DNA of 60,891 nt, taken from the NCBI GenBank assembly GCA_003021725.1, contig PXRA01000013.1, positions 1,481-62,371 of the forward strand. Direction: 5' to 3'. Under the pieces are notes generated by a model that saw only the letters and a list, made by a program, of their open reading frames with translations, had not been told where the DNA came from and searched no databases. The translations under genes and the position numbers were made by a program. Positions 47,589 to 52,220 of the stretch are shown here, piece after piece (position 1 is the stretch's first letter; each line of letters starts with the position of its first letter). The stretch is from Halobacteriales archaeon QH_8_64_26. Its GTDB lineage: Archaea > Halobacteriota > Halobacteria > Halobacteriales > Halococcaceae.

Positions 47589-48793
47589 ATGACGGCGGCC
47601 GATCCGTCCTTGCTCATCGTCGCCGTCGCGGTGATCGCGAGCCTCTCGATGGCCTGGGCACTAGGGGCCTCCTCTAACTCGCCGCCCTTCGCCCCGGCGG
47701 TCGGTGCCAACGCAGTGCCGACGATGCGGGCGGCCTTCCTTGTGGGGACCTTCGCCGCGCTCGGCGCGATCGCTCAGGGGGGTAGTATCTCCGAGACGGT
47801 CGGCAACGACCTGATCAGCGGCGTCTCGATCACGCCGCTCGCCGCCACGGCCGGGTTGCTCACCGCAGCGGCCTTCATCGCCGTCGGCGCCCGAACCGGC
47901 TACCCGATCCCTGCCGCCTTCGCGGTCACCGACGCGGTTATCGGCGCTGGCCCGAGCCTCGGGGGCAACCCAGCTATCGGTACCTACCAGCGCCTCGCGG
48001 CCTTCTGGGTTGCCGTGCCCTTCGTCTCCGTCTCGATCGCCTACGGCACCGCGACACTGCTCCGACGCGAGGACATGCCCGAAGAACTCGGGGTGCCCCT
48101 GCATGCAGGAATCGTCGGGTTCGTCCTTGCGAACGTCCAGCTCGCGGTCTTTCCGGCGGCGAGCGGCGGCACCTTGGCAGGGTTCGTTGCGGCACTCTTC
48201 GGACTCGAAATCACTCTCTTCGATTCCTACACCCTCCTCGCGCTCGTCGCGAGTCTCGCCTTCGGAACGCTCGTGTTCTACGCGATGTACCGGTCGATGC
48301 TCCGGTCGGTCAAGGGAGGGATCCGGCAGTTCCTGATCGGGCTCGGGGCGGTCGTTGCCTTTTCGAGTGGGACAGTCAGGTGGGACTCGCGACGGGCCCG
48401 CTCGAACCGCTCTTCGACTCGTTAGGGACGCCGGGCTTCCTCCTGTTGTTGCTCGGCTCGATCGGCATCCTCTTGGGCGCGTGGATGGGCTCGCCCCGGC
48501 TCCTGCAAGCGGTTTCCCGTGAGTACTCCCAACTGGGAGTCCAGCGGTCGATCGCCGCCTTGGTACCGGGCTTTATCATCGCGCAGGTCGCGATCGCGCT
48601 GGGCATCCCGATCTCGTTTAACAACATCATCATCTCCAGTGTGATCGGCAGCGGCCTCGTCGTCGGCTCGGCGGGCGTCTCGGGCCGGAAGATCGGTGTT
48701 ACCGTCGCCGCATGGCTCGTCACTCTGGTGGCATCCGCGGGGGTCGCCTTCGGGCTCTATCGCGCGCTCGCGCTCGTTTCGGGCGGTGCCTGA
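47589..48793 (+). pseudogene. PiT-family inorganic phosphate transporter with one frameshift
   Basis: A membrane transporter starting MTAADPSLLIVAVAVIASLS at ATG 47589. The first half has the signature GASSNSPPFAPAVGANAVPT (first PiT repeat) and many hydrophobic spans to VVAFSSGT. Near 48372-48380 the frame changes; the next frame continues QVGLATGPLEPLFDSLGTPG, MGSPRLLQAVSREYSQLGVQRS and ALGIPISFNNIIISSVIGSGL, the second PiT repeat, to TGA 48793. One missing base rejoins a protein of about 401 aa, of normal length and organisation. It may be a recent frameshift or an assembly error. If functional it would take up phosphate with cations. Confidence 0.8.
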
Positions 48794-48871: not shown

Positions 48872-49303
48872 CTACTCCGACTCGGCGATCGTTCGGGCGA
48901 AGTCCTCGACCGGGATCACCGAGTAATCGACGCTCATGGTGTCACTGGTGGCCCGGATCTTCCCGACGAACGTCGATATCTCCTCCAGAGCCCCATCGAG
49001 GATGAACAGTTCCATGCAGTAGTGATCGCCGACGTGGCTATGGAAGTTCGAGGCGACGAGGTGCTCGTGTTCGTGGCGCAGCCCCATCATCCGCTCCTCG
49101 ACGCTCGTCGTCTCGTAATCGAATAACACGGTGACGATCCCCAGTAGTTCCCGGTCTTCGAGCCGGCGGTCCTCGAACTCCCCTAACAGATCGCGGGCGG
49201 CCTCGCGCATCACTTCGCTGCGGCCGGTGTAGCCGTGTTCCTCGGCGAACCTATCGATCCGGCCCAGTAGTTCCTCGGGCATCGAGATGCTCACGACAGT
49301 CAT
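48872..49303 (-). CDS. nikR: nickel-responsive regulator NikR
   Basis: A 143-aa repressor from ATG 49303 ([20 protein letters not shown]). The N-terminal ribbon-helix-helix DNA-binding domain (residues 1-45: [22 protein letters not shown]...[12 protein letters not shown]) is followed by an ACT-like metal domain. Nickel ligands typical of NikR are present: His near residues 77-81 (RHEHEH), H88 and H90 (FHSH), and C96 (HYCMEL). It binds Ni2+ and represses nickel-uptake genes; here a palindrome resembling the NikR operator lies just upstream, so self-control is likely. No nickel transporter lies in the window. Confidence 0.88.
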
Positions 49304-49324
49304 GTACTAACACGACGACCCGCG

Positions 49325-49355
49325 AGTATCAGTCTTTAGCAACAGCACTAATACT
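49325..49355. promoter_or_regulatory. candidate NikR operator (palindrome)
   Basis: AGTATCAGT (49325-49333) and ACTAATACT (49347-49355) are inverted repeats, one mismatch, 13 bases apart. The inner GTATCA...TAATAC layout resembles the GTATGA...TCATAC sites of bacterial NikR. It lies 22-52 bases before the nikR start, over the expected promoter, and so could give autorepression. Confidence 0.6.
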
Positions 49356-49387
49356 CGGCGGTCGAGGATTGGGTTCGACGACCGATC

Positions 49388-50851
49388 TCAGAACTCGAGT
49401 TCGTCCTTCACTGACTGGGTGGCTATCCGAGCCAGAAGTCGTGCCGGCCCGCGCTTCGGGAGATCGGTAACGATTTTGCCGGTACTCGGCGGGTCGCTTC
49501 CACCGATGCCGATCTCCCAGCCGGTTTCCTCACAGAAACGCTCGACCGCCCGCGTCGCTCGCTCCCGGATCGCCTCGGTATCGAGGCGGGGAATTGTACC
49601 CTCTCCCATTAGAACAGTTCCGTCGACGACGACGGTCTCGACGTCGGCACTCGTCGCGTTGTTGACGATCTGGGCCGGGACGTTCGTCAGTGGCGTGAAC
49701 TTCGGTTTGTCGACGTCGAGAACGAGAAAGTCGGCCCGTTTACCGGGTTCGAGGCTGCCGATCTCCTCGTCCATCCCGAGGGCTTCCGCGCCCTCGATCG
49801 TAAGCATCCGCACCAATTCTATCGAGGAGAACTGTTTGGCTCCTTTCTTCAGGTTCGCTGCGAGCCGCGCTTGCCGTGCCTCGCCGAACAGATCGTAGGA
49901 GTCGTGCCAGTAGTAATCGTCGAGTCCGAGCCCGGTCGCCACGCCGGCTCCACGTAGTTCGGGAACCGGCGTCCAGGGCGCTGATCCGTCGGGATTGAAG
50001 TAGCAGAATATCGATGGACAGTGAGCGACGCCCGAACCGGCGTTCGCGATCCGTCGAATATCCTCCTCGTCGGCGAGGCGGACGTGTGCCGCGAGGAGCC
50101 GTTCGTCGAGTAGACCGACCTCCTCTACGAGCCCCAGTGAGTCCTTCGCGCCGTACGAGCGGGCGAGCGTGTTACTCTGGTCGAGTTCGAGGAGGTGCGT
50201 ATGGACCGGCAGCGTCGGATACTCATCGGCGAGCCTCGCAACCCGCTCCCAGAGGTCACGGCTGACCGACCAGTCGTCGTGGGGACAGATCGCTGCTCGA
50301 ACCCGTCCGCCGTAGCTCCCGTGGCAGGTCTCAACGAACGAGCGAGCACGTTGTAGCTGCTCGTCGACCGGAACGTCCCAGAAGAGGTCGGTGATCGTCG
50401 AGCCGAAGACGCCTCGGAGTCCGGCCTCGCCGAAGACCTCCGCTCCGTACGTTGGTCGAACGTCCATCGAGTTGGTAGTCGTGACACCGCCGACGAGGAA
50501 GTTGAGCGCGGCGAGTTCGTAGCCTGCCTTCACGAGATAATCGTACTCGCCGCGCCCAAGTTGGTTGTACACGGCTGTCATGGTTGCGAATAGCTCGCCG
50601 ACGCCGAACTCGCTGAACGCACCGATGAGCGCCGTCAGTTCGAGATGTGCATGGGCATTAACGAGGCCCGGTAGCACCAACTTGCCTGTCCCGTCGATCA
50701 CGTGATCGGCATCGAGGGTAGCGTCCCCATCGTGTGTCTTCCGGACCTCCCTAATAACCCCGTCCTCGCTGACGAGCGTCCCGCGCTTGAAGAGCCGATT
50801 CCGATCATCGACAGTAAGCACGAACGCGTCGTGGACGACGATCCTCGTCAT
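49388..50851 (-). CDS. amidohydrolase (deaminase-like, TRZ/ATZ superfamily)
   Basis: A 487-aa metal-dependent hydrolase from ATG 50851 (MTRIVVHDAFVLTVDDRNR). Metal-binding HxH in PGLVNAHAHLELTALIG, VHTHLLELDQ, LLAAHVRLAD and the Asp in GLGLDDYYWHDSYDLFGEAR are visible; the tail SLEPGKRADFLVLDV closes it. The WHDSYDLF segment resembles deaminases acting on guanine-like or SAH-like substrates. It is distinct from the gene at 13393 in active-site surroundings. An AT-rich promoter-like stretch (GATTATTATTCT, minus strand) lies upstream. Substrate unknown. Confidence 0.75.
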   Translation of the reverse strand: MTRIVVHDAFVLTVDDRNRLFKRGTLVSEDGVIREVRKTHDGDATLDADHVIDGTGKLVLPGLVNAHAHLELTALIGAFSEFGVGELFATMTAVYNQLGRGEYDYLVKAGYELAALNFLVGGVTTTNSMDVRPTYGAEVFGEAGLRGVFGSTITDLFWDVPVDEQLQRARSFVETCHGSYGGRVRAAICPHDDWSVSRDLWERVARLADEYPTLPVHTHLLELDQSNTLARSYGAKDSLGLVEEVGLLDERLLAAHVRLADEEDIRRIANAGSGVAHCPSIFCYFNPDGSAPWTPVPELRGAGVATGLGLDDYYWHDSYDLFGEARQARLAANLKKGAKQFSSIELVRMLTIEGAEALGMDEEIGSLEPGKRADFLVLDVDKPKFTPLTNVPAQIVNNATSADVETVVVDGTVLMGEGTIPRLDTEAIRERATRAVERFCEETGWEIGIGGSDPPSTGKIVTDLPKRGPARLLARIATQSVKDELEF

Positions 50852-51038
50852 TGTTCTCTCGTTCGATCAGTATCGACTCCGGTTCGCAGTTCACCTACAT
50901 CAGCCAACATGAAAAACGATTAGCTACTCGAGAATAATAATCGGTTCGAAGCGAACGGCCTATTGCGCGAACGCTGAAACACGGTGTGGCAAGTCAACCT
51001 TCGTTCTCCTCTTCTCGCTCGGAGATTCGAAACGGGAC

Positions 51039-52220
51039 TCACCGGTCGCGCGGGACGGTCTCGCCTGGTTCGGTGCGCACGCCCGCCGAGAGCACGACGC
51101 CCGGATACAGCGTCGTGTCGATGCCGGTCTTCGCTCGATCACCGACGACGACGCCGTACTTCCGGCGGCCGGTCGAGACCCGTTCGCCCTTGACTGTTTG
51201 GCGTACCGCCTCGTCGTCGTGCCGGAGGTTCGCGACGGTCGTCCCCGCGCCGAAGTTGACTGACCGGCCGAGCACGCTGTCGCCGACGTAGGAGAGATGA
51301 GGTATCGCGGAGTCGGCCATCAGGACGCTGTTTTTGATCTCGACGGAGTGGCCGACTTCGGTGTCCTCGCCCAACAGGGTCGCCCCCCGAACGTAGGCGT
51401 TCGGCCCGACGTGGGCCCCGGCCCGAATCAGGACGGGGCCCTCGATCACGACGCCCGGTTCGATTCTCGCGCCCTCCTCGACGACGACCGCGCCCCGGAG
51501 GTCCGCCTCGGCTGCCACCTCGCCATCGATCGCACGCTCTAACTCGGCGAGCTTCCACTCGTTGGCTTCGAGCAGTTCCCACGGCCGCCCGACCCCGAGC
51601 CAGCGCTCGATCTCGGTGTAGGACACCTCCCATTCGTCGATAACGCGAGCCAGGACGTCGGTGATTTCGCGCTCGCCCCGTTCGCTCTTCTCGACATCGA
51701 GGTACTCCCGGGCCGCCGCGGGAAAGGCATACGCGCCGGCGTTCACGAGATCGGTGTCGGGATCGGCCGGTTTCTCGACGATGCCCGTCATTCGCCCTTC
51801 CTCGACCGACAGCACGCCGTAATCGGACGGGTTCGGCGCGCGGTAGGCCCCGACCGCGGGTGCGGAGTCGAGCAGCGCCGCGATACTGCCGGGATCGTAG
51901 AGGTCGTCGCCATTGAGGACGCAGAACTCGCCCTCCAAGTGCTCGCGGGCGGCGGCCACCGCGTCGGCGGTTCCCTCCTGTTCGTCCTGGACGGCGTAGC
52001 TGACCGGCGTGCCCCGGTACTCCGCGCCGAAATAGGAGCGCACGACCGCGGCCTCGTAGCCGACGACGAAGATCAGCTCCTCCGTGCCGGCTTCGACGGC
52101 GGCGTCGGCGGTGTGGGAAACGAGCGGCCGGTCGGCGACCGGGAGCATCGGCTTCGGCAGGTCCGCCGTGAGCGGGCGCATCCGGGTCCCTTCCCCGGCG
52201 GCGAGGAGAACGGTCTGCAT
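51039..52220 (-). CDS. glmU: GlmU-like sugar-1-phosphate nucleotidylyltransferase/acetyltransferase
   Basis: A 393-aa bifunctional enzyme. The N-terminal nucleotidyltransferase motif is LLAAGEGTRMRPLTADLPKPMLPVADRPL, followed by the metal site NGDDLYD. The C-terminal left-handed beta-helix is seen as hexapeptide repeats (GARIEPGVVIEGPVLIRAGAHVGPNAYVRG; VEIKNSVLMADSAIPHLSYVGDSVLG). It makes an activated amino-sugar such as UDP-GlcNAc from sugar 1-phosphate, using the product of the hexose mutase at 44228. Haloarchaea have several paralogues, so the precise sugar is uncertain. Confidence 0.82.
   Translation of the reverse strand: MQTVLLAAGEGTRMRPLTADLPKPMLPVADRPLVSHTADAAVEAGTEELIFVVGYEAAVVRSYFGAEYRGTPVSYAVQDEQEGTADAVAAAREHLEGEFCVLNGDDLYDPGSIAALLDSAPAVGAYRAPNPSDYGVLSVEEGRMTGIVEKPADPDTDLVNAGAYAFPAAAREYLDVEKSERGEREITDVLARVIDEWEVSYTEIERWLGVGRPWELLEANEWKLAELERAIDGEVAAEADLRGAVVVEEGARIEPGVVIEGPVLIRAGAHVGPNAYVRGATLLGEDTEVGHSVEIKNSVLMADSAIPHLSYVGDSVLGRSVNFGAGTTVANLRHDDEAVRQTVKGERVSTGRRKYGVVVGDRAKTGIDTTLYPGVVLSAGVRTEPGETVPRDR

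Follow-up and report, generated by a model that had tools for sequence, protein, structure and literature searches.

A conserved element at the start site of haloarchaeal nikR genes as a putative NikR half-site, and a palindrome over one nikR promoter as a probable by-product

The closest described operators are those of bacterial NikR. In the available text of PMC7055735, the NikR operator of E. coli nikABCDE is given as GTATGA-N16-TCATAC. The NikR signal of the delta-proteobacterial nikMQO operons is reported as GTGTTAC-N13/14-GTAACAC (PMC545781, available excerpt); in the same excerpt, the NikR consensus shifts between lineages while the inverted layout of 27-28 bp, which the known signals span, stays. 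Basal haloarchaeal promoters are described, in the available part of PMC4983044, as a BRE (CGAAA), a TATA box (TTWT) and a WW element at -10. A literature search in which subscription journals were thinly covered returned no study of a haloarchaeal NikR operator.

We analysed a stretch of 60,891 nucleotides (the window) from the draft genome of Halobacteriales archaeon QH_8_64_26 (3.05 Mb, 116 contigs, 88% complete). A palindrome lies over the promoter of a nikR gene in this window, and the first-pass annotation had read it as a NikR operator. The palindrome resembles the E. coli operator in its place over a promoter by a NikR gene and in its outer form, GTATTA-N17-TGATAC. It differs from that operator, as the latter is given in the available text, in having a spacer of 17 instead of 16 and one mismatch in each hexamer, in being unconserved, and in being absent from the nikR and nikM genes of relatives. 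The resemblance held for the outer form and not for the exact half-sites or spacing. The features of the locus are as follows.

48872-49303, minus strand: nikR, 143 amino acids, with a ribbon-helix-helix (RHH) DNA-binding domain and a NikR_C nickel-binding domain (Pfam and PDB matches).
49304-49311, minus strand: start-site block GTTAGTAC, in which TTRNYAY immediately precedes the ATG; putative half-site for NikR.
49326-49331, minus strand: TATA-box position, TGATAC here and TTAATA in the order, conserved at -29 to -24; possible inverted partner of the start-site block (TGATAC-N15-TTAGTA).
49336-49341, minus strand: BRE-position element, TGCTAA here and TRNYAA in the order; alternative inverted partner (N25).
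49325-49333, plus-strand letters: gene-proximal arm of the palindrome, AGTATCAGT, which coincides with the TATA position, is identical in the sister genome G012, and has at least 2 mismatches in the other upstreams.
49347-49355, plus-strand letters: distal arm of the palindrome, ACTAATACT, which is mismatched at 4-7 positions in all 80 upstreams besides that of the window (of 81), and at 5 of 9 in G012.
49316-49364: full inverted repeat, with 18-nt arms (15 of 18 positions paired) and a 13-nt spacer.

The nikR product scored above the Pfam cut-offs for RHH_1 (34.8 bits) and NikR_C (75.2 bits) and matched the NikR structures from P. horikoshii, H. pylori and E. coli in the PDB. Its best scores against the NCBIfam NikR models were below the cut-offs (79.6 of 111, 79.3 of 83 and 78.8 of 105 bits), as was its score against TIGR02793 (67.8 of 175.45 bits). 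Judged by its sequence, the product is a NikR-family regulator and, by the NCBIfam models, a divergent member of the family. The presence of the nickel ligands, as annotated in the first pass, was borne out by alignment: H77, H88, H90 and C96 correspond to H76, H87, H89 and C95 of E. coli NikR, which we take to be the nickel ligands of that protein. H77, H88 and C96 were invariant across 18 sequences, and H90 was substituted in two paralogues. In the RHH strand, the alignment placed V3, S5 and S7 against R3, T5 and T7 of E. coli NikR, which presumably contact DNA. The E. coli half-site is therefore not expected here, and a different half-site would be no surprise; the delta-proteobacteria already deviate as well. 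The closest product in a collection of named organisms, from which the source genome was possibly left out, was 96% identical and came from the uncultured Halobacteriales archaeon QS_3_64_16. The nikR protein had matches in all 18 genomes of the family, and a NikR-family match at E <= 1e-20 was found in 191 of the 194 genomes of the order, a few of these being more distant NikR-family matches. Many of the genomes behind the genus- and family-level counts are incomplete. A PHO4-family transporter gene of the window is split into two overlapping open reading frames (47589-48425 and 48380-48793) that both match PF01384 over consecutive parts of the profile; the split (47589-48793) is either a frameshift or an error of the draft.

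The palindrome itself, AGTATCAGT-13-ACTAATACT, is present at 49325-49355, 22-52 bases upstream of the nikR ATG, and 8 of the 9 bases of its 9-nt arms pair. The pattern GTATSA-N14-18-TMATAC, which was written after the site had been seen, has a single occurrence in the window, where 0.01 would be expected. Inverted repeats with 9-nt arms, at most one mismatch and a spacer of 8-20 are frequent, with 284 in the window; 493 of 3577 sampled 85-bp stretches (14%) contained such a repeat, as did 183 of 3000 sequences (6%) obtained by dinucleotide shuffling of the nikR upstream gap (49304-49388). Fewer repeats have similarly AT-rich arms (14 placements across the window, including three for the nikR palindrome), and the 18-nt form has 4 placements at 3 places of the window, compared to a mean of 0.6 in five first-order Markov simulations. 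The palindrome is a real, mildly unusual inverted repeat, and this is not by itself evidence of function.

The conservation of the palindrome was followed in the upstreams of related nikR genes. The tblastn matches that included a start numbered 126; 85 of them were at least 70% identical, and 81 of these were distinct in the last 60 bases before the ATG. Some of the 81 belong to second nikR copies next to nikM, and one region was left out, its match starting only at residue 9. The arms were complementary with at most one mismatch, shifts of 3 bases being allowed, in only one of the 81 upstreams, that of the window itself. The next-best arms had 3 mismatches (5 upstreams). In a second set, the best 80 of 339 named nikR loci (own genome excluded, organisms overlapping with the 81), complementary arms were found in none. 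The sister genome G012, whose NikR is 96% identical, retains the gene-proximal arm and has lost the distal one. From TGCTAAAG through the ATG it differs from the window by one base, and farther upstream the two are unrelated. This divergence is in keeping with a change of gene content immediately before the nikR promoter (49388-51039): an amidohydrolase gene lies between a nucleotidyltransferase gene and nikR in the window, and another, short open reading frame occupies this place in G012.

The layout was also searched for elsewhere. GTATNA-N14-20-TNATAC occurs at two places in the source genome, the nikR palindrome and a site on contig C80 (position 17333, gap 15) that precedes a gene with an NTP_transferase (Pfam) match, a nucleotidyltransferase. 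Because the C80 site has the same letters in G012, we regard it as kept sequence of another promoter, with no nickel gene as far as seen, and rejected it as a second copy of the operator. Among the 18 family genomes, GTATNA-N15-18-TNATAC was found at 22 places and the reversed control at 20; this is no excess, and none of the 22 places fell at nikR or nikM coordinates except the nikR of the source genome. The palindrome had also been put forward as a genome-wide probe for NikR targets. It is unsound as such, because it has no copies at the nickel genes tested and is not conserved. That it is a NikR operator, perhaps newly evolved in this lineage, is very improbable. Its position over the promoter, its hexamers that are each one letter off the E. 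coli consensus GTATGA/TCATAC, and the rarity of its 18-nt form compared to chance speak for this reading. Against it stand the occurrence in 1/81 and 0/80 upstreams, the lack of an excess in the family genomes, the loss of the distal arm next to an almost identical protein in G012, and the altered RHH residues. We rejected the palindrome as an operator. It probably arose as a by-product, in which an arm supplied by the TATA region met a distal arm that is absent at the same place in the relatives examined.

The nikR upstreams share a different set of signals. In a profile of 64 of the 81 upstreams, less than 70% identical to each other, three blocks were anchored to the ATG: AT.YAA at -39 to -33, TTAATA at -29 to -24, and TTRNYAY at -7 to -1. 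The first two were named BRE and TATA box by their distance to a start presumed leaderless. Their spacing from the start is the one that a leaderless gene should have, as in the basal haloarchaeal promoter, although their letters (TRNYAA and TTAATA) differ from the general consensus as given in the available part of PMC4983044. Compared to that promoter, the nikR upstreams have TTRNYAY in addition. The block carries 0.5-2.0 bits per position and reads TTAGTAC in the window (49304-49310). It stands directly before the ATG in 70 of the 81 upstreams and was found in 74 of the 80 in the second, overlapping set. The exact form is absent from 11 of the 81, including a genome of the same genus (G013, CTAGCAT) and several of the same family (TTCACAC).

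A basal function of the start-site block, as an initiator, a melting region or a leaderless translation signal instead of a NikR site, was considered and appears unlikely. A leaderless gene should indeed begin its transcription where the block lies, next to BRE and TATA, and the WW element proposed at -10 for haloarchaea (PMC4983044, available part) would suit such a function. This reading is opposed by the two control families used, in which no counterpart of the block was seen (at most 0.38 bits per position at -7 to -1) and TTRNYAY preceded 0/30 and 0/29 starts (0/59 in the two families). In one of them, PRA-CH (hisI), for which 29 of 30 loci gave a start and several starts are uncertain, the BRE and TATA signals lie at nearly the same places as in nikR. 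Within the window, TTRNYAY precedes 1 of 856 ATGs, that of nikR. On the genome-wide scale, the start-block patterns were specific to nikR, which likewise speaks against a basal function. TTAATA-N15-17-TTAWTAYATG occurs at 58 places in 57 of the 194 genomes, compared to 2 for the reversed control, and 56 of the 58 places are nikR (28 of 30 that were translated, 2 more that were translated, and 26 by nikR coordinates); the remaining two are followed by frames of 33 and 35 codons. This strict pattern has no match at the nikR of the source genome. The degenerate pattern TRNYAN-N15-TTRNYAYATG has one place in the source genome, which is nikR. As the two patterns had been drawn up from nikR upstreams, it is their near absence elsewhere that is informative. 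These observations suggest an unusually conserved extra promoter element of nikR and its autoregulation. The autoregulation by nickel proposed in the first pass is thus partly supported as an idea, by this element, and not through the palindrome, which is present in 1 of 81 upstreams.

The same type of element recurs at nickel transporter promoters. CbiM/NikM matches were found in 6 of the 18 family genomes and in 58 of the 194 genomes of the order. They fell into a high-scoring and a lower-scoring group, and the latter was called nikM because it adjoins nikR. G011 has nikM and nikR in divergent orientation on one contig, and urease is also present there; the genomes G131, G181, G162, G052, G156, G189 and G113 have a nikR copy ~0.2-4 kb upstream of nikM, with both genes on one strand. 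In G002 (contig C3), several nikR copies stand side by side near nikM, and one of these copies is interrupted by a stop codon. The nikM upstreams (27 distinct) contain TTRTTAYC from TATA-31, RGCAA, the TATA box TTATTAT, and ATTRNYAAC from TATA+20. TTRNYA is found at TATA+21 in 25 of the 27 and at TATA-31 in 18 of the 27. The letters of the nikM element (ATTRNYAAC) differ from those of the nikR block, and it lies one base nearer the start of the TATA box. The distance from the TATA start to the ATG varies (29-35) while the TATA offset is kept, so the nikM element is tied to the promoter and not to the start codon. This argues further against a basal function of the block. Thus, a start-site element is conserved at nikR (70/81) and common at the promoters of the nickel transporter gene nikM (25/27).

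No CbiM/NikM match was found in the draft source genome, and its only urease match (contig C7) was below the cut-off. With the draft 88% complete, some NikR targets may have escaped either the assembly or the searches. In many genomes, a distant NikR-like protein (24-30% identical) is encoded beside CbiM of the high-scoring group. By eye and uncounted, AGTATTAC/GTAATACT often stands ~50-60 bases before the gene of this protein and is perhaps a different operator.

A second NikR-family regulator (MRTSLNI...) is encoded in the source genome itself, on contig C85 (about 1226-1665 of the locus). Its N-terminal part is in one frame and its NikR_C part in another, and the coding region seems to change frame. 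Such a paralogue was found in at least 7 of the 18 family genomes (G000, G005, G006, G011, G012, G013 and G017). Upstream of its start, the source genome carries the palindrome GTTGTTATG-N16-GGTAATAAC; this type is kept in 6 of 8 loci, as TGTTATG-N16-(C/G)GTAATAAC, and two loci have diverged. The palindrome lies 67-69 bases before the paralogue start, and its arms are of the GTTRTTAY type, like the half-site proposed for nikR. Since the paralogue's own promoter holds such half-sites, the start-site block of nikR could be the site of another regulator, for example this second NikR-family protein controlling nikR. We consider this distinctly unlikely, because NikR-family matches extend to 191 of 194 genomes and most nikR upstreams have the block, compared to at least 7 of 18 family genomes for the paralogue.

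The geometry of a possible operator was examined by pairing the start-site block with upstream positions. Inverted pairing was best with -28 to -23, which gives a 27-bp dyad, TRNYAN-N15-TTRNYA. With the TATA position, the block of a given sequence paired better in that same sequence than across sequences, and 0.2% of shuffles did equally well; this and the other pairing values are uncorrected for relatedness and for the several offsets tried. In an 8-mer test, the BRE position was about as good a partner as the TATA position (0.6% and 1.4%, respectively). Both positions are expected to be conserved anyway as parts of the core promoter. A direct repeat of the start-site block and the TATA position was rejected, as within-sequence pairing was no better (35% of shuffles as good).

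The reading that we favour, and hold to be rather likely, is that the palindrome is a by-product, that the start-site block is a NikR half-site, and that nikR is autoregulated through its start-site element. Autoregulation through the block is inferred because the block is conserved in 70 of 81 and 74 of 80 upstreams, is nearly specific to nikR, and is shared by nikM. In the proposed mechanism, GTTRNYAY (GTTAGTAC, 49304-49311) would serve as the putative half-site, and a nickel-loaded NikR tetramer would bridge this half-site and a partner in inverted orientation at the TATA or the BRE position (here TGATAC-N15-TTAGTA or TGCTAA-N25-TTAGTA). The bridging NikR would then cover the TATA box and the transcription start and repress nikR. 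At nikM promoters, ATTRNYAAC, 20 bases after the TATA start, could play the same role. The proposed haloarchaeal dyad resembles the delta-proteobacterial nikMQO signal, as described in the available text of PMC545781, in its length (27 bp) and its occurrence at a nikM-type transporter. It differs from that signal in the letters of the half-site, in the position of the element on the TATA box and start site, and in having two candidate partners.

On the same comparative grounds, we propose tentatively that haloarchaea may have an ancestral NikR code, in which GTTRNYAY half-sites placed on the TATA box and the start site provide near-universal autoregulation of nikR, are reused at nikM, and would allow a direct block of TBP/TFB binding and promoter melting. 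If this is true, nikR would be autoregulated also where a CbiM/NikM transporter was not found. The analysis replaces a misleading operator consensus by a testable one, which, if true, would provide haloarchaeal NikR with a sequence code. A further question that it raises is why an apparently autoregulated nickel sensor is so widespread (191 of 194 genomes) compared to CbiM/NikM (58 of 194).
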